Source of the DNA: Parasporobacterium sp.
GTDB taxonomy: Bacteria; Bacillota; Clostridia; Lachnospirales; Lachnospiraceae
Length of the DNA: 64,000 bases
Assembly (NCBI GenBank): GCA_017459985.1
Contig: JAFUBX010000001.1
Span: 1 to 64,000 of the forward strand
Reading direction: 5' to 3'
In this document: one piece after another, positions 52,742-60,524 of the stretch
Layout of the letters: every line of letters starts with the position of its first letter
Numbering within the stretch: the first letter of the stretch is position 1
Made by a program: the position numbers and the translations under genes
Notes under the pieces: model-generated
Databases searched by the model: none
The model's input: only the letters and a program-made list of their open reading frames with translations
Told to the model about the DNA's origin: nothing

Positions 52742-54142
52742 TCAGGCTTTCTCGAATACGGTCTTCATGCATTTGTAAGTCATATAACAGTCAAATTTTG
52801 CCACGGTCTCGTAAGGGGCATGCATGCTGAGCACCGGAACACCCGCATCAATGGTCTCAATATTCCGGTTTGCCAGATCCAGGGCTACGGTTCCGCCTCC
52901 GCCGTTATCATTCTTCCCCATCTGGGTCATCTGCCATACCACACCATTGTCATTCATAAGCTTGCGGAGCTTTCCGACTGTCTCTGCCGATGCATCGGAT
53001 GCCCCGGATTTTCCGCCGTGTCCGGTATATTTGCAGAATGCCACTCCATGGTTGATCTTGGAATCATTTCTTACCTCGAAGGCTTCGGCATAATTGGGAT
53101 CGTAAGCAGCTGTCACATCCGCGCTGACGCAGAAGGAATGGGCAAAGCAGTCCCGGATATCCACCTTCTGGGCTTTGCAGAGATCTCCGACAAACCATTC
53201 GAAGGCTTCACTGATCATTCCGGTCACACCGACGGAACCGATCTCTTCTTTATCCGCGAAAATGCAGACTCCGGTCTTTTTCACCTTTCCGGCATCAAAA
53301 AGCCCTGCCATCTCTGCATAAGCGCAGACCCGGTCATCATGTCCGTATGCTGCGATCAGACTTCGGTCAAACCCGATATCCTTTGCCTTTCCCGCCGGAA
53401 CCACCTCCAGTTCCGCGGAAATAAAATCTTCTTCTTCCATCCCGTATTTCTCGTTCAGAAGTTTCAGGATGCCCATTTTGACCCGCTCGGATTCCTCGCT
53501 CTTGCCGATGGGACGGGATCCCACCAGTACATTCAGGATTTCGGAAGGAACCGCCTGATCCAAGGGCTTCTGATCGGTTGATTTTTTCAGATGCGGCAGA
53601 AGATCTTCTATAATAAACTGGGGATCACCCTCATCCGCTCCGATATTGACTTTTACTTCTTCCCCATTTCTTAAGACCACCACTCCATGAAGCTCCAGCG
53701 GTCTGGCGACCCACTGGTATTTCCGGATTCCGCCGTAATGGTGGGTCTTCAGATATGCCATTTCCGCGTCTTCATAAAGGGGATTCGGCTTCAGATCCAG
53801 CCGCGGAGCATCCGTATGTGCCGCTGTCAGATTAATGCCCTGATCCAGGCTGTCGGAGCCGATCACCGCAAACATGATGGATTTTCCTCTGTTATTAAAA
53901 TAGAATTTATCCCCTGCCTTGATCTTCTGCCCGAACCGGTATTCTTTGAACCCCTGCTTCTTTGCCAGCTCAATACAGTAATCCACACAGAGCCGCTCTG
54001 TTTTGCAGTGATCCAGAAAGTCCTTATATCCGTCGCAATATTGATTCATTTTTTTCTCTTCTGCAGCCGTCAGTTTGTCATATCCGTTTCCCGGCTGATA
54101 AAAGAGTTTTTCCTTGATCTCATTTTTCTTTTTTTCCGCCAT
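52742..54142 (-). CDS. M18 family aminopeptidase
   Basis: Zinc exopeptidase with a preference for acidic or other N-terminal residues. 466 residues from the ATG at 54142; ATG at 54160 would add six residues and neither has an ideal ribosome binding site. The metal ligands appear in TAAHTDAPRLDLKPNPLYED, ADKEEIGSVGVTGM, AAYGHDDRVCAYAEM and the late His in GVPVLSMHAPYE. It is a cytoplasmic enzyme and could process peptides brought in by the Opp system next door. Confidence 0.92.
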   Translation of the reverse strand: MAEKKKNEIKEKLFYQPGNGYDKLTAAEEKKMNQYCDGYKDFLDHCKTERLCVDYCIELAKKQGFKEYRFGQKIKAGDKFYFNNRGKSIMFAVIGSDSLDQGINLTAAHTDAPRLDLKPNPLYEDAEMAYLKTHHYGGIRKYQWVARPLELHGVVVLRNGEEVKVNIGADEGDPQFIIEDLLPHLKKSTDQKPLDQAVPSEILNVLVGSRPIGKSEESERVKMGILKLLNEKYGMEEEDFISAELEVVPAGKAKDIGFDRSLIAAYGHDDRVCAYAEMAGLFDAGKVKKTGVCIFADKEEIGSVGVTGMISEAFEWFVGDLCKAQKVDIRDCFAHSFCVSADVTAAYDPNYAEAFEVRNDSKINHGVAFCKYTGHGGKSGASDASAETVGKLRKLMNDNGVVWQMTQMGKNDNGGGGTVALDLANRNIETIDAGVPVLSMHAPYETVAKFDCYMTYKCMKTVFEKA

Positions 54143-54299
54143 ATCGCATTCGCTCTCCATTCTTTTTATATCAGCTGATAATAAGCAGCTTTCCGCATTG
54201 TAGCACTCTTATGGTCAGCTGGCAAATCCTTCCGGGGCGAGACGCAATAACTGGTTCTTTTTCTGTGTCTATAAGTATCAAAAAAACAATCGCCGCTGT

Positions 54300-54519
54300 A
54301 CCGCAATGCTCGATGTTTTTGACAACGACTGCCGAAATATTGCAGCATTGCGTGAGATTTTCGGCAGACAACCCCTAAAAGCCCCTATTTTACCGAAATA
54401 TTGCAGCAATGCGTGAGTTTTTCGGCAGAAATGACTCTCTGGAAGCTCCATTGACGAAAAATTGCAGCATTGCGTGAGTTTTTCGACAGCACCTGCCGAA
54501 ATATTGCAGCATTGCGGTA
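54300..54519. repeat. Interspersed array of 38-39-nt semi-palindromic repeats
   Basis: Copies at 54329-54367, 54391-54428 and 54452-54489 plus a truncated one from 54494, consensus TGCCGAAATATTGCAGCATT followed by GCGTGAGTTTTTCGGCAG. Each copy has complementary ends (CTGCCGAAA / TTTTCGGCAG). Spacers are 23, 23 and 4 nt. The whole block is bounded by an inverted 11-mer ACCGCAATGCT (54300-54310) / AGCATTGCGGT (54509-54519). It lies in the 54143-54697 gap, which otherwise holds only a terminator. Confidence 0.85.
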
Positions 54520-54638
54520 AAATCCCCTGCAATGGGGCTGCTCCGTGCTCCATGCTCACGCACTCCCCAAGGTCCATTCGGATTTCCGCGTTCTCCGAGC
54601 GCTCCATCCTCATGTCCTCTGTCCGAACAAAAAAATAA

Positions 54639-54697: not shown

Positions 54698-56398
54698 TTA
54701 TCTGCCAAACTGGCAGTCGTTGTTTCCGGATGCGGTTACCCACATTTCGAGCATGTTGATCGGGTCGTTGAAGTCAGCGATCCAGCCTTCACGTGCGAAA
54801 TCGAAGTTACCATTCTTACGTTCCTCAAGGAATACGTTCCAGTCCTGAACCTGGATGGACATATCAATACCGACTGCTGCAAAATCCTGCTGCATGGACT
54901 CGGCGATTGCAATGTGTCCTGAATTCTCGTTGGTCAGATATTCGATGGAGATCGGAGTCTCAGCGGATAACAGGCCGTCATCACCGAACTCATATCCTGC
55001 AAACTCAAGCAGTTCGATGGCTCTTGCTACAGTTGCGTCATAGTCATCGTTGATGGCGTACGGATCATAGTAGCCGGTTTCGGTATCTTCTTTGAAGATG
55101 CCGCCGTTGCCGTCTGCCATACCGATCGGGATATAAGCATTGGCTGCAACCTGGCCGGTCTGTCCGATGTTCTCGCAGATGTAGTCACGGTCGATCAGCA
55201 GGGAGAATGCTTCTCTCATTGCTGCTGCCTGCTCTGTGGTCTTGCCTTCAAACAGAGAGCTCTTTGCATTGAATGCTGCATAGTAGGTTCCCAGTTCGTC
55301 AACAATGTGGAATTCCGGATTTTCTTCCTCTAACAGAGTTGCGATCTCATCGGTCGGAACAGAGTCAGCAAAGTCGATGGATCCGTCATTGTAAGCGGCG
55401 TAGATTGCGGTATCGTCTGCGGAAAGCATGAACTCAAGCTTTTCAACAGTTACCTGATCAGCGTTGTACCACAGCGGGTTCTTCTCATAAGTCATGGAAG
55501 TGTCATGGCTCCATCCGGTGCAGACATATGCGCCGTTGGACGGGAAGCCCGCTTCCTGGCACCATGCGCCGGGAGCTTCTGCGGTTGCATGCTCTTCTAC
55601 CCATGCTTTCTGAACCGGATAGAAGGTCGGGAATGCCATAAGGTCCTCGATGTAAGCGCAGGGAGCGGTCAGAACGAACTGCAGTGTGGTGTCATCCAGA
55701 GCCTTGACATTCAGGTCAGTGGTTTCACCTTCTACATATCCGTCAAATCCGGAGAACATGTAAGCGTAGTCTGCTGCAGTTGCCGGATCAGTAGCTCTCT
55801 TCCAGGAATACTCAAAGTCAGCAGCGGTCAGGTCAGTGCCATCGCTCCACTTCAGGCCTTCCTTCAGGGTAACGGTGTAGGTCAGACCATCTTCTGTAAC
55901 TTCATAGCCTTCTGCACAGGCCGGAACGGTAACACCGTCAGCATTGTAGGTGTACAGACCAGAGAAGGAGTTGGCTGCCAGGCAGGCGCCGTCTACGGAA
56001 CTGTTCAGAGCCGGGTCAAGATAATCCGGTTCGGAAGACAGGTTCAGCTTCAGGGTGTCGGAACCGTTAGCCATGGTGGTATACATAAAGAACTTGGTTG
56101 CAAACGGGTTGGAATAGATACCGTCCACATAGTCTTTCTGCATATAAACATCGTTGTAATAATAGATCGGAATGACGCAGTAGGTAGCCATGAGGATATC
56201 CTCAGCTTCATGCATCATCTCGGTACGTTTTGCCATGTCAGTTTCAGCCTTGATCTGTGTGATCAGCTCATCATACTGAGCCCAATCAGCGGAAGGATCG
56301 ATCAGAGCATCGCTGACCATAGCTTCTGCTGCAAATACGGATGATGCCATTCCGATGCACATCACTGCAGCAACTACGAATGCAATTACTTTTTTCAT
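54698..56398 (-). CDS. Oligopeptide ABC transporter substrate-binding protein, circularly permuted
   Basis: 566-residue SBP_bac_5 (OppA-like) protein. The signal peptide MKKVIAFVVAAVMCIGMASS ends at VFA-AEA with no lipobox. Residues about 36-108 (DWAQYDELITQIKAETD... IPIYYYNDVYMQKDYVDG... KFFMYTT) are what normally forms the C-terminal end of OppA; compare the E. coli OppA end with VPVYYYVNARLVKP. The usual mature N-terminus follows at about residue 112 (DTLKLNLSSEPDYLDPALN), and the protein stops after FNDPINMLEMWVTASGNN, exactly where that C-terminal segment is normally found. In the folded protein the two ends are close, so the permuted form could still fold. It is the last gene of the Opp operon. 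Confidence 0.88.
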   Translation of the reverse strand: MKKVIAFVVAAVMCIGMASSVFAAEAMVSDALIDPSADWAQYDELITQIKAETDMAKRTEMMHEAEDILMATYCVIPIYYYNDVYMQKDYVDGIYSNPFATKFFMYTTMANGSDTLKLNLSSEPDYLDPALNSSVDGACLAANSFSGLYTYNADGVTVPACAEGYEVTEDGLTYTVTLKEGLKWSDGTDLTAADFEYSWKRATDPATAADYAYMFSGFDGYVEGETTDLNVKALDDTTLQFVLTAPCAYIEDLMAFPTFYPVQKAWVEEHATAEAPGAWCQEAGFPSNGAYVCTGWSHDTSMTYEKNPLWYNADQVTVEKLEFMLSADDTAIYAAYNDGSIDFADSVPTDEIATLLEEENPEFHIVDELGTYYAAFNAKSSLFEGKTTEQAAAMREAFSLLIDRDYICENIGQTGQVAANAYIPIGMADGNGGIFKEDTETGYYDPYAINDDYDATVARAIELLEFAGYEFGDDGLLSAETPISIEYLTNENSGHIAIAESMQQDFAAVGIDMSIQVQDWNVFLEERKNGNFDFAREGWIADFNDPINMLEMWVTASGNNDCQFGR

Positions 56399-56469
56399 GT
56401 TTTTCCTCCTAGTTTTTTTGCCCTGCAGGGCGTTATTTATATCATGGGAAAGGCTCCCAAAAGATATCG

Positions 56470-57432
56470 TTATTTATTCCAGCAGGCGCTGAAATGTCCG
56501 TCTCCCCGGTCTGTCAGGGGCGGCATTTCTTTGGCACACTGCTCGCTTGCATATCTGCAGCGGGTCCGGAACGGACAGCCGGAAGGCATATGCAGGGGAC
56601 TCGGCACGTCTCCCTCCAGAATGATCCTGCTTCGTTCTCTTGCGATCTTCGGATCCGGAATCGGAACCGCGGACATCAGGGACTGGGTATAGGGATGCAG
56701 CGGATGATCCGAGATGGAATCCGCATCCGCCATCTCCACCATCTTGCCCAGATACATAACCGCGATATTTTTGGAAATATGGCGGACTACCAGAAGATCG
56801 TGGGCAATGAACAGATAGGCAACTCCCAGCTTTTCCTGCAGCTCCTCGAACATGTTGATCACCTGCGCCTGAATAGAAACATCCAGGGCGGAAACCGGCT
56901 CGTCACAGACGATAAACTGCGGATTGACGGCCAGAGCCCGGGCAATGCCGATCCTCTGCCTCTGGCCTCCGGAGAACTCATGGGCGTACCGTCTTGCATG
57001 CTCCGCATTCAGACCGACCAGTTCCATCAGATGCAGGATCTTCTCCCGGCGGTCCTTACGGCTGTCGTATAATTTGTGGACATCCAGCGGCTCGCCGATA
57101 ATATCTTCTACCGTCATTCTCGGGTCCAGGGAAGAATAGGGGTCCTGGAAAACCATCTGCATTTTCTTCCGCATCTGCCCGATATTTTTCGCAGTGACTT
57201 CCTCTCCGTCAAACCGGACGATCCCCGCAGTCGGCGTATAAAGCCGCAGCAAGGTCCGGCCTACTGTGGTTTTGCCGCAGCCGGACTCCCCGACCAGTCC
57301 CAGGGTCTCTCCGGCATTAATCGAAAAGGACACGTCATCCACAGCCTTGAGGGTCAGTTTTTTGAAACCATCTGTTACCCGGAAATATTCTTTCAGATGT
57401 TCCACTTCAACCAATGGTCTGTTCTGTTCCAT
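56470..57432 (-). CDS. oppF: Oligopeptide ABC transporter ATPase OppF
   Basis: 320 residues; Walker [10 protein letters not shown], signature [39 protein letters not shown], and the C-terminal iron-sulfur/zinc-type cysteines of oligopeptide ATPases ([14 protein letters not shown]). The start overlaps the oppD stop by one base (TGATG). A 71-nt gap with a GCCCTGCAGGGC palindrome precedes the binding protein gene. Confidence 0.95.
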
Positions 57433-58517
57433 CAGTTATTCCCCTCCTTTCCGTCTGCAGCGCTGTCCGGTACGGATCCTTCCGGAAGTCTCAGGCATTC
57501 GGGAAGTTCTCCACCGAATTCCTCCGGAAGTTCCCCTCGCTCCGTCATCTCTTTGATATTCATCCAGCAGGAAGCCAAGTGATCCTGATTGATCCGGATC
57601 TCCTGGGGGATCTCTTCCAGGCAGATCTTCATGCATTCATCACAGCGGGCAGAAAATGCGCAGCCCTTCGGCATATTCAGCATGTTAATCGGAGTACCGG
57701 CGATCGGGATCAGCTTTTTCTTCATATTATTGATGCTCGGAATCGACCGGAGAAGTCCTTTGGTGTACTCATGCTTCGGATTGTAGAAGATCTCATCCGC
57801 GGTGCCCCGCTCACAGATCCGGCCTCCGTACATGACGATAATGGTGTCGCACATATCGGCAATGACACCCAGATCATGGGTCACGATAATAATCGCCATG
57901 CCCAGTTTCTTCTGCAGATCCAGCATCAGCTCCAGGATCTGCGCCTGGATGGTCACATCCAGAGCCGTTGTCGGTTCATCGGCAATCAGGATATCTGGTT
58001 CGCAGGCCAGTGCCATAGCAATCATATCACGCTGCCGCATACCGCCGGAATGCTCAAAGGGATACTGTTTCAGACGTTTCTCCGGATCGTTGATCCCGAC
58101 CAGCTCCAGAAGTTCCCTGGCTCTGGCCTTGATCTCATCCCCCTTCTTGTCTGTATGAAGACGGATCGCCTCTTCAATCTGATTTCCGATGGTAAACACC
58201 GGATTCAGGGAGGTCATGGGATCCTGGAAAATAATGGAACAGTTCTTACCCCGGAACTGGGACATCTGCTTCTCGTTCCATTTGGTAATATCCTCTCCCT
58301 TATAAAGGATCCTGCCGCTTTTAATATAGCCGTTGTTGGCCAGAATCTGCATAATGGAATAAGCCGACACGCTCTTTCCGGAACCGGACTCTCCGACGAT
58401 TCCCAGGACTTCTCCCCGGTCCACGTTGAAGGAGATTCCGTTGACAGCCTGGACTTCTCCGGAATCTGTCCGAAATGACGTATGCAGATCCTGAACGCTT
58501 AATAATACCTCACTCAT
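57432..58517 (-). CDS. oppD: Oligopeptide ABC transporter ATPase OppD
   Basis: 361 residues; Walker [11 protein letters not shown]-loop [19 protein letters not shown], signature [38 protein letters not shown], and the cysteine cluster [14 protein letters not shown]...C near the end. A variable acidic tail ([21 protein letters not shown]) follows. Confidence 0.95.
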
Positions 58518-58521
58518 ATCG

Positions 58522-59598
58522 TCACCTCTTCAGTTTCGGGTCAAAGGCGTCTCTCAGGCCGTCACCCAGTAAATTCAGACTTAACACAATCAGACAGATC
58601 ACAACCGCCGGAAATACCAGCTTATACGGGTAGCTCTGCAGTCCTTCCCGGGCAGCGTTGGCCAGGGAGCCCAGAGAAGGCATCGGAGCCTGCACGCCCA
58701 GTCCCACAAAGCTCAGATAGCTTTCGGTAAAAATAGCGGAAGGAATCTGGAGGGCTGTCGAGATAATGATTACCGACAGACAGTTCGGCAGAATATGTTT
58801 GCGGATGATCCTGCCCTTCTTCGCACCGATGGAACGGGCGGCCAGAATGAACTCATTTTCCTTGATCGACAGGATCTCGGCCCGGATCAGTCTCGCCATG
58901 CCGACCCAATACAGACATCCGAATACAATAAACAGGGAAATCATGTTGGTTCCCAGGGATGCCAGCAAGGATCCGCTCTGGAACACCAGGACCGTATTCA
59001 GTACTACGGACAGCAGGATGATGACCAGCATGTCCGGCAGCGAATAGATAATATCCACGATCCTCATCATGATCATATCCGTTCGTCCGCCGGTATAACC
59101 CGCGATACTTCCGTAGATCATTCCGATGATCAGAACGATGATACTTGCGAAAAATCCGACCACCAGCGAAACTCTGGTTCCGTATACGACACGGATGAAA
59201 TAATCACGGCACTGCTCATCGGTCCCGAAGATATGGGGGAACCGGGTGCCTCCTTTGTCAATAAATGCCTGTTCATTCTTGCTGTAAGTAAATGGCGCCA
59301 GATTCTTGGCCGATTTATCCCGCTTGCCCTCCACGGAAAGGATCTCCGCATAGCCATAGGGAACGATAGCCGGAGCCACAAGGATGATGCCGACGATCAG
59401 CACCAGTACAACGATACTTGCAACCGCAAGTTTATTTTTAAACAGCCGGCGCATTCCGTCTTTAAAGAACGTGGTGCTCTCGCTCATGACGTCCTGCTGC
59501 CGTTTCTCCTCTTCGGTTGCCTTTCCGAATTTCTGCAGGTTCAGCTGCAGGCTGAAAGGAGACTTTTTGGGCATTCCATTCTGATCATACTGAATCAT
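58522..59598 (-). CDS. oppC: Oligopeptide ABC transporter permease OppC
   Basis: 358 residues with an N-terminal cytoplasmic stretch, a first membrane helix (about 55-77), and the transport domain with EAA loop VYGTRVSLVVGF... AARSIGAKKGRIIRKHILPN and YLSFVGLGVQAPMPSLG. The second of two in-frame ATGs (59598) is preferred because AAGGAG is 7 nt upstream of it but adjoins the first (59604). Confidence 0.93.
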   Translation of the reverse strand: MIQYDQNGMPKKSPFSLQLNLQKFGKATEEEKRQQDVMSESTTFFKDGMRRLFKNKLAVASIVVLVLIVGIILVAPAIVPYGYAEILSVEGKRDKSAKNLAPFTYSKNEQAFIDKGGTRFPHIFGTDEQCRDYFIRVVYGTRVSLVVGFFASIIVLIIGMIYGSIAGYTGGRTDMIMMRIVDIIYSLPDMLVIILLSVVLNTVLVFQSGSLLASLGTNMISLFIVFGCLYWVGMARLIRAEILSIKENEFILAARSIGAKKGRIIRKHILPNCLSVIIISTALQIPSAIFTESYLSFVGLGVQAPMPSLGSLANAAREGLQSYPYKLVFPAVVICLIVLSLNLLGDGLRDAFDPKLKR

Positions 59599-59612
59599 AC
59601 GCATTCTCCTTT

Positions 59613-60524
59613 CTATTCATACTTGATCCGGGGATCCACGACTTTATACAGCAGGTCGCAGATCAGGTTCGCCACCACCATCAGCACCGCAAGGAAGATC
59701 GTCGTCGCCATGATCATGGTATAATCCCGGTTGTTGATGGCGCTGACAAACTTACTGCCGATTCCGCCGATGGTAAATACCGTTTCCACGACCATGGACC
59801 CGGTAATGATATATGCGATCTCCGGTCCGGCATAGGTAATGACCGGGAGCAGGGAGTTTCTGAGAGCATGTTTGAAGATCACCTTCCACTTGGCCACACC
59901 CTTTGCCTTGGCGGTCCGGATATAATCCTGGGAAAGCGCGTCCAGCATGCTGGTCTTGGCCAGACGGGTGGTATAGGCCATGGGATAGGCGCACAGAGCG
60001 ATCACGGGAAGCACATAGTTGGTGCTGTTGGCGCTCCAGACCTGTACCCAGCCCAGCTTGATGGAGAATACAAGCAAAAGCAATGTCGCCAGGATGAAAC
60101 TGGGCACCGCCGTGAACAGCGTCGACAGAAAGATGATGATCCGGTCAGGGAGCTTATTCCTCATCAGGGCCGCGATACTGCCGAAAATGGTGCCCAGCAC
60201 CAGGGCAATGCTCACCGCCAGCAGACCGATCTTGCAGGAGATCGGGAAGGACTCGCCGATAATGTCTTTGATTTCACGTCCGTTCTTCAGGCTGACGCCG
60301 AAATCTCCCTGAACGATCCCCTTCATATACAGTCCGAACTGCACCAGGATCGGCTTGTCCAGATTATACCGTTCATTCAACGCCTGGATCGTAGCCTCCG
60401 ACAGTGCCTTTTCCCGGTTGAACGGGCCTCCGGGCACCGCATTCATCAGAAAGAATGTGATAATGCAGATCAGAAGCACAGTAACGATCGCCAGGATAAT
60501 ACGTTTGATGATATACTTTAACAC
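59613..60524 (-). CDS. oppB: Oligopeptide ABC transporter permease OppB (GTG start)
   Basis: 303 residues, six hydrophobic segments; N-terminal LKYIIKRIILAIVTVLLICIITFFLMNAVPGGPF and EAA loop YIRTAKAKGVAKWKVIFKHALRNSLLPVITYAG. Start codon is GTG at 60524, with AAGGGG 8 nt upstream. First gene of the Opp operon. Confidence 0.94.
   Translation of the reverse strand: MLKYIIKRIILAIVTVLLICIITFFLMNAVPGGPFNREKALSEATIQALNERYNLDKPILVQFGLYMKGIVQGDFGVSLKNGREIKDIIGESFPISCKIGLLAVSIALVLGTIFGSIAALMRNKLPDRIIIFLSTLFTAVPSFILATLLLLVFSIKLGWVQVWSANSTNYVLPVIALCAYPMAYTTRLAKTSMLDALSQDYIRTAKAKGVAKWKVIFKHALRNSLLPVITYAGPEIAYIITGSMVVETVFTIGGIGSKFVSAINNRDYTMIMATTIFLAVLMVVANLICDLLYKVVDPRIKYE

Follow-up and report, generated by a model that had tools for sequence, protein, structure and literature searches.

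A natural circular permutant of an OppA-type oligopeptide-binding protein, with relatives cut at four sites

The last gene of an opp operon in the window (the whole stretch of 64,000 nucleotides analyzed here) encodes a natural, secretion-compatible circular permutant of an OppA-type protein, in which a signal peptide is followed by the canonical C-terminal segment and then by the canonical mature N-terminus. Judging from its sequence, the product, encoded by a rotated coding sequence, very probably (about 0.9) serves an Opp-type ABC importer as a functional oligopeptide-binding protein. The original prediction had described the gene as a natural circular permutation, and the order of its parts, the conservation of that order across genomes, purifying selection and a pair of canonical and permuted orthologues (at another cut site) bear this out. 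What the prediction did not contain is that circular permutation is recurrent in these proteins, at four cut sites.

Order of parts in the window protein

The predicted reading frame, 566 codons from an ATG behind AGGAGG, is correct at both ends, as is the predicted junction of the old termini at residue 109/110 (window 56072/56071). The features of the locus are the following:

54698..56398, minus strand: circularly permuted SBP_bac_5 (OppA-type) protein, 566 amino acids (Pfam, order relative to solved chains, and profile)
56405..56410, minus strand: AGGAGG ribosome-binding site just 5′ of the ATG (sequence reading)
56330..56398, minus strand: Sec-type signal peptide, residues 1-23 (MKK...SSVFA), with no lipobox cysteine at the cleavage region (by inspection)
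56285..56329, minus strand: spacer preceding the relocated segment, residues 24-38
56072..56284, minus strand: relocated segment, about 70 C-terminal residues of canonical OppA; residues 39-109 (40-109 being profile positions 441-510)
54701..56071, minus strand: canonical mature N-terminus up to the cut, residues 110-566 (profile 4-440), ending DPINMLEMWVTASGNNDCQFGR
56470..57432, minus strand: oppF-type ATPase (ABC_tran and oligo_HPY; Pfam)
57432..58517, minus strand: oppD-type ATPase (ABC_tran and oligo_HPY; Pfam)
58522..59604, minus strand: oppC-type permease (BPD_transp_1 and OppC_N; Pfam)
59613..60524, minus strand: oppB-type permease (BPD_transp_1; Pfam)
52742..54160, minus strand: M18 aminopeptidase, downstream on the same strand

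SBP_bac_5 (PF00496) is the single Pfam family found in the protein at E ≤ 0.001, with a match on residues 158-560 (E = 1.6e-78, 264.9 bits against a cut-off of 32.4); the score for the NCBIfam OppA equivalog PRK15104.1, 225.8 bits, stays below the cut-off of 947. Homology to SBP_bac_5 / OppA-type cluster C proteins covers the N-terminal, middle and C-terminal parts, and it is their N-to-C order, usual in the family but not defining for homology, that is absent. Solved chains display the reversal directly: residues 111-562 correspond to positions 17-450 of 8are (OppA) and residues 41-96 to positions 456-511, and for 8ay0 (DppE) residues 110-560 correspond to 18-444 and residues 39-99 to 448-510. 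Both chains, which we take to be B. subtilis proteins, have Opp-type transporter partners; they are homologous to the window protein over its full length and contain the same GWxxDFxDP region, but their order is canonical. Among the listed solved chains (best 60 per search), no best-scoring stretch bridges both parts across the junction. On a canonical profile of 511 positions, built from eight canonical-order sequences of which one was the window protein after rotation, the protein reads 441-510 and then 4-440.

The proposal that residues 36-108 represent the C-terminus of OppA is supported by alignment, given that they match 106 of 109 canonical SBP_bac_5 sequences (97 of them distinct) at E < 1e-3, and that all 106 matches end within 24 amino acids of the canonical C-terminus. 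Chance similarity of this segment is rejected, since its best match scores 109 bits and none of 200 shuffled versions exceeds 30 bits. Assignment of residues 112-566 to the N-terminal part is likewise in agreement with the solved OppA and DppE chains, which match residues ~110-562 at chain positions ~17-450. The protein stops at the motif SGNNDCQFGR, and 87 of the 106 distinct proteins with the same cut (type A, see below) stop exactly at this motif, variants allowed. Two complete parts in reversed order, without overlap, in one open reading frame and in more than one genome are the marks of a natural circular permutant, and they are found for type A as well as for type C described below.

Gene order at the locus is oppB-oppC-oppD-oppF-oppA with the permuted oppA last, so that the gene has two permease and two oligo_HPY ATPase genes as neighbours, as is usual for OppA-type proteins. 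The M18 aminopeptidase is a possible functional partner of the permuted OppA. Between these two genes lies a 37-nt repeat in four copies (window 54303-54532; spacing 61, 61 and 42; 70-100% identity). A repeat search inside the permuted gene itself was uninformative, yielding a single direct pair (17 nt) and a single inverted pair (20 nt).

Permuted relatives, cut sites and anchoring

The prediction pointed to related genomes as the place to look for the same order, and the permuted order was present in one open reading frame in 80 of the 80 relatives kept (the best 80 of 331 related stretches from genome contigs). Order was checked block by block in each of them, and a hit range of 1-566 was not accepted as proof. 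These loci include Treponema bryantii XBD1002 (L057) as well as bins labelled Lachnospiraceae, Oscillospiraceae, Spirochaetes and Chloroflexi. Permuted genes are also carried by three one-contig genomes, G249 (type C), G869 (type A) and G951 (type A, broken by a stop), and G694 has a type A gene on a contig of 3.43 Mb. A set of 60 relatives contained same-order matches at 84-90% identity in G006, G012 and G013; the window genome itself lacks a second close copy, and the two further matches in it are 31 and 34% identical. Whole-gene dN/dS is 0.073, 0.083 and 0.052 relative to G006, G012 and G013, respectively, and values of 0.038 and 0.054 were obtained for the relocated segment relative to G006 and G012, the segment being saturated for G013. 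Across the junction dN/dS is 0.08-0.14; relative to T. bryantii, synonymous sites are saturated. With whole-gene values of 0.05-0.08 and an order conserved in many genomes, both an assembly fault and a relic are excluded, and we reject a pseudogene on the same dN/dS values.

Relatives in which the middle part comes first revealed three further permutations, again as single open reading frames, with export signals recognized by eye. The four cut sites are:

A (window): profile 440|441; 106 distinct proteins; 8are 450|456
B: profile ~273|274; 5 distinct proteins, one of them start-clipped by a contig end; near 279 of 1b05
C: profile ~350|354; 12 distinct proteins, with L273 added later; 8are 362|363
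D: profile ~117|120; 3 distinct proteins; 8are 128|140

Domain I of Salmonella OppA, which we assume to be the protein in 1b05, comprises residues 1-44, 169-270 and 487-517, domain II residues 45-168 and domain III residues 271-486. By these limits, cuts A, B and C presumably fall in domain III and D in domain II, with none in domain I, presumably the home of the natural ends. The median number of residues between the aligned parts where the old C- and N-termini meet is 0 for A, 2 for D, 8 for B and 16 for C. The GW-x-x-D-F-x-DP pattern is present in 102/106 type A, 5/5 type B, 8/12 type C and 3/3 type D proteins and in 64/97 canonical ones; the matching region of OppA is assumed here to hold the aspartate that binds the amino end of the peptide. 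The order oppBCDF-A is found in type-A operons and in both type-D operons examined, and oppA-BCDF in the type-C operons examined; type B is organized as oppA-BCDF in L115 and L256 and as oppC-D-F-A in the partial stretch L164. In T. bryantii (L057:2862-3937) and in L090 (2674-3751), oppC is split into two open reading frames, possibly by a frameshift.

Prevalence was surveyed using A2, a profile of the joined ends with 164 positions, for which permuted genes score at least 173 bits and cover at least positions 5-162, single canonical genes score at most 152 bits among the rows listed, mostly as half matches, and tandem canonical pairs with intervening stops score 159-168 bits. The counts are lower bounds, from overlapping genome samples (the window genome is in three) whose centre genomes were picked as carriers of the gene and whose candidates were scored in part (3 per genome in the first survey, at most 9-18 in the junction-profile surveys): a junction-spanning gene is present in at least 11 of 398 genomes of the same phylum (the window's own type A, one B and nine C, including G432 with a stop), at least 8 of 295 of the same order, at least 24 of 348 of the same family (the gene of G951 being broken further on), at least 3 of 247 Spirochaetota, stop-free, and at least 1 of 201 Chloroflexota, the centre genome itself with two genes. 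Eight Spirochaetota genomes spanning A2 (159-168 bits, 1-2 stops) were set aside, as they contain two successive canonical open reading frames, the second broken in L207. An in-frame stop breaks the permuted genes L287:6040-7851 (G951, type A) and L163:6803-8476 (G432, type C), both from genomes in one contig.

The prediction also stated that the protein has no lipobox, which holds for the window protein and its closest relatives (L004, L005 and L006) but not for permuted proteins generally: a rough pattern detects a lipobox in 84 of the 106 distinct type A proteins, 4 of 5 type B, 4 of 12 type C, 3 of 3 type D and 72 of 97 canonical proteins. A link between permutation and lipobox loss is rejected on the type A count. 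Monoderm importers use lipoproteins, and a binding protein lacking the lipobox is expected to leave the cell; the protein of the window clade may be unattached, or an uncleaved signal may hold it. The missing lipobox speaks for placing the window protein off the importer, as a secreted peptide scavenger or a relic, a reading that we consider improbable given that dN/dS is 0.05-0.08 and that the gene still adjoins four conserved transporter genes. In the working binding protein that we favour instead, the ~70 residues that close the canonical chain come first, directly behind the export signal, and almost nothing separates the old C-terminus from the old N-terminus. After export, presumably by Sec, the chain would fold into the two-lobed cluster C structure, since the old and new junctions both fall between conserved blocks. 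It would then bind peptides through the GW-x-x-D-F-x-DP region and deliver them to OppBC, the rotation having shifted the attachment end of the chain from domain I to domain III (to domain II for type D). Two permuted relatives differ at their front end. L109:5320-7608 has a spacer of ~200 residues rich in E, A and V between lipobox and body, and in L100:527-2425 a dockerin-like N-terminal stretch (Dockerin_1, 22.5 bits against a cut-off of 22.9) replaces the lipobox. This stretch could possibly link the protein to a cellulosome-like scaffold, and suggests that the new front end may serve as an attachment point.

Trees, origins and orthologues within one genus

For phylogenetic analysis, binding-protein sequences were rotated to the canonical order and 84 of the 267 classified sequences were kept as representatives by identity cut-offs. 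Approximately unbiased (AU) tests for A and C used 78 rows, 6 long-branch canonical rows being omitted, and those for B and D used 45 of the 78. The OppB/C/D/F transporter tree contains 47 of 49 rows (L276 and L282 omitted), and L288, which sits in a divergent operon, was omitted from its AU test. All trees come from quick searches, and some of their branches are long. In the binding-protein tree, well-supported branches require at least nine changes of the canonical state, with type C in two places and type B in two. The AU tests reject a single clade of C (p = 4e-69) and likewise of B (p = 4e-107, 45-row tree) but not of D (p = 0.29, 45-row tree); type D could represent one or two origins. 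A single A clade (without L010) is rejected at p = 0.0003, as the canonical L119, L250, L251 and L259 nest among type A. L010 and L116, which stand apart from the other A proteins (87% in the binding-protein tree), may represent a further origin.

The transporter genes reveal a similar picture. In their tree, 34 type A and 4 canonical operons form one group with 100% support, in which the canonical operons occupy two places, three of them joined at only 81%, and a single clade of type A is rejected (p = 1e-47). Counted by eye, this tree corresponds to one gain of type A with two reversions to canonical order, or to some six gains at site A; this permutation either originated more than once or was reversed. 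On the fewest-changes reading there are at least six origins: A, two for B, two for C and one for D. Much less probable is one ancient permutation per cut site, with the scattered canonical relatives explained by tree error or gene replacement. The quick trees with their long branches and the result for D are compatible with it, and rejection of a clade alone would allow one gain and later losses, but the AU tests reject single clades for A, B and C and one canonical gene (L251 in the binding-protein tree, L270 in the transporter trees) nests alike in both, which argues against gene replacement. In the transporter tree, the oppBCDF-A operons of spirochaetes (L057, L041 and L292, from Treponema and other Spirochaetota) nest among those of Bacillota, which suggests that the complete permuted operon was transferred horizontally.

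Canonical and permuted orthologues coexist within one genus. A second operon of the window genome, oppA-B-C-D-F on G000:C97, contains a canonical oppA, and in G007 the same operon, with oppB, oppC, oppD and oppF in the same order at 84, 78.5, 83 and 86% identity, carries a type C oppA. Canonical residues 42-400 match residues 219-577 of the G007 protein at 76.6% identity, and canonical residues 400-564 match residues 51-215 at 76.4%. This orthologue is canonical in G000, G006, G012, G013 and G011 and permuted in G001, G002, G003, G004 and G007; a canonical gene in G008 was rejected as an orthologue at 31% identity. The genes oppB-C-D-F follow oppA in G000, G006, G013 (oppF clipped by the end of the stretch), G011, G007 and G004 (oppF in two open reading frames), oppB alone follows it in G001 and G003, and oppA lies at contig ends devoid of transporter genes in G012 and G002. 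Since the more distant G011 (transporter genes at 70-76%) has a canonical oppA, the direction of change was apparently from canonical to permuted. Together with the unchanged neighbours, the equal identity of both parts makes rotation of the gene at its existing position the likeliest event. A search of the flanks in this within-genus case found no remnants of the missing parts.

These orthologues also bear on domain shuffling, in which the front segment would be the C-terminal piece of another paralogue and the protein's own end would have been lost later. Paralogues of these binding proteins are frequent in these genomes, but a paralogue chimera is very hard to reconcile with two parts equally near a single canonical orthologue and with cut points that abut with little or no overlap; moreover, the four blocks of type A proteins are broadly alike in identity to the window protein in most relatives, those of L010-L012 being uneven (34-57%). 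An assembly or binning artefact, a canonical gene mis-joined at 56060-56080, might be suspected in a window genome of 131 contigs with 4.98% contamination whose listed relatives are mostly metagenome bins, but this explanation, which the prediction had named as what could overturn it, is scarcely credible given the independent assembly of many species with the same order, the one-contig genomes and 3.43-Mb contig cited above, and the dN/dS over the junction.

Known parallels and routes to permutation

As a rule, natural circular permutations are ancient single events that are difficult to trace. DNA methyltransferases are known for repeated circular permutation within one family; the OppA permutants differ in being secreted, with an N-terminal export signal kept while the body rotates, and in that canonical and rotated orthologues share one operon position within one genus. 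In the portion of PMC3320104 cited here, DNA methyltransferases figure as a family with documented permutation intermediates, and duplication and fission with fusion as the two main models of permutation. A closer parallel is TpMglB-2 (Tp0684), the “Type Ic / Cluster Bc” glucose-binding lipoprotein of T. pallidum, which the cited part of PMC4990184 presents as a natural permutant with relatives in treponemes and Gram-positive gut bacteria, and for which its authors suggest a link with membrane tethering. Both are naturally permuted ABC binding proteins with relatives in these two groups, but TpMglB-2 has the cluster B sugar-binding fold, needs a fourth hinge crossing, and is described there in one topology (PMC4990184), against four cut sites and within-genus switching in OppA. 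By sequence, the window protein is unlike the “Type Ic” group, as its sole Pfam family is SBP_bac_5. Judged by titles and the beginnings of abstracts, a search limited to open-access papers, without subscription papers or preprints, returned none on a permuted SBP_bac_5 (OppA/DppA) protein.

A peptide-binding protein evidently tolerates cutting and re-ordering. In one large transport-receptor family, four sites account for at least six origins if changes are kept to the fewest, and sister species of one genus carry canonical and permuted orthologues next to transporter genes whose order is unchanged, all of which makes the origin of permutation directly testable. For protein engineers, the cut sites identify loops at which OppA-type proteins can take new ends, and the permutants constitute a natural experiment on whether the lobe that bears the membrane anchor matters to an ABC importer. 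Models that depend on order may match permuted genes only piecewise.

As to how the rotation arose, we lean slightly towards permutation by duplication, combined with limits on tolerated ends: a tandem oppA pair would fuse, its redundant outer parts would be trimmed and the export signal kept, and a fold tolerating new ends at few loops only would explain the recurrence of the same sites. Tandem canonical oppA pairs exist in at least 8 of 247 Spirochaetota genomes, and L111 has a tandem permuted pair; no fused double binding protein, the expected intermediate, was found among the listed junction-profile matches. The precision of the cuts makes trimming after duplication less than obvious, and exact, recurrent cuts fit either strong limits on end tolerance or a route through a circular intermediate. 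More speculatively, and we offer this tentatively, SBP_bac_5 genes may be rotated repeatedly and reversibly, one operon position switching order at four preferred sites, with the canonical order restored from site A at least twice, by a frequent mutational route (turnover of tandem oppA genes or re-insertion of a circular intermediate) that could shift the export and anchor end between lobes during adaptation. In the Spirochaetota loci L200-L206, 18-24 nt separate the stop of the first tandem canonical oppA gene from the start of the next, and in L111 (4073-7602) the two permuted genes, both of type A, lie behind a single oppBCDF set.
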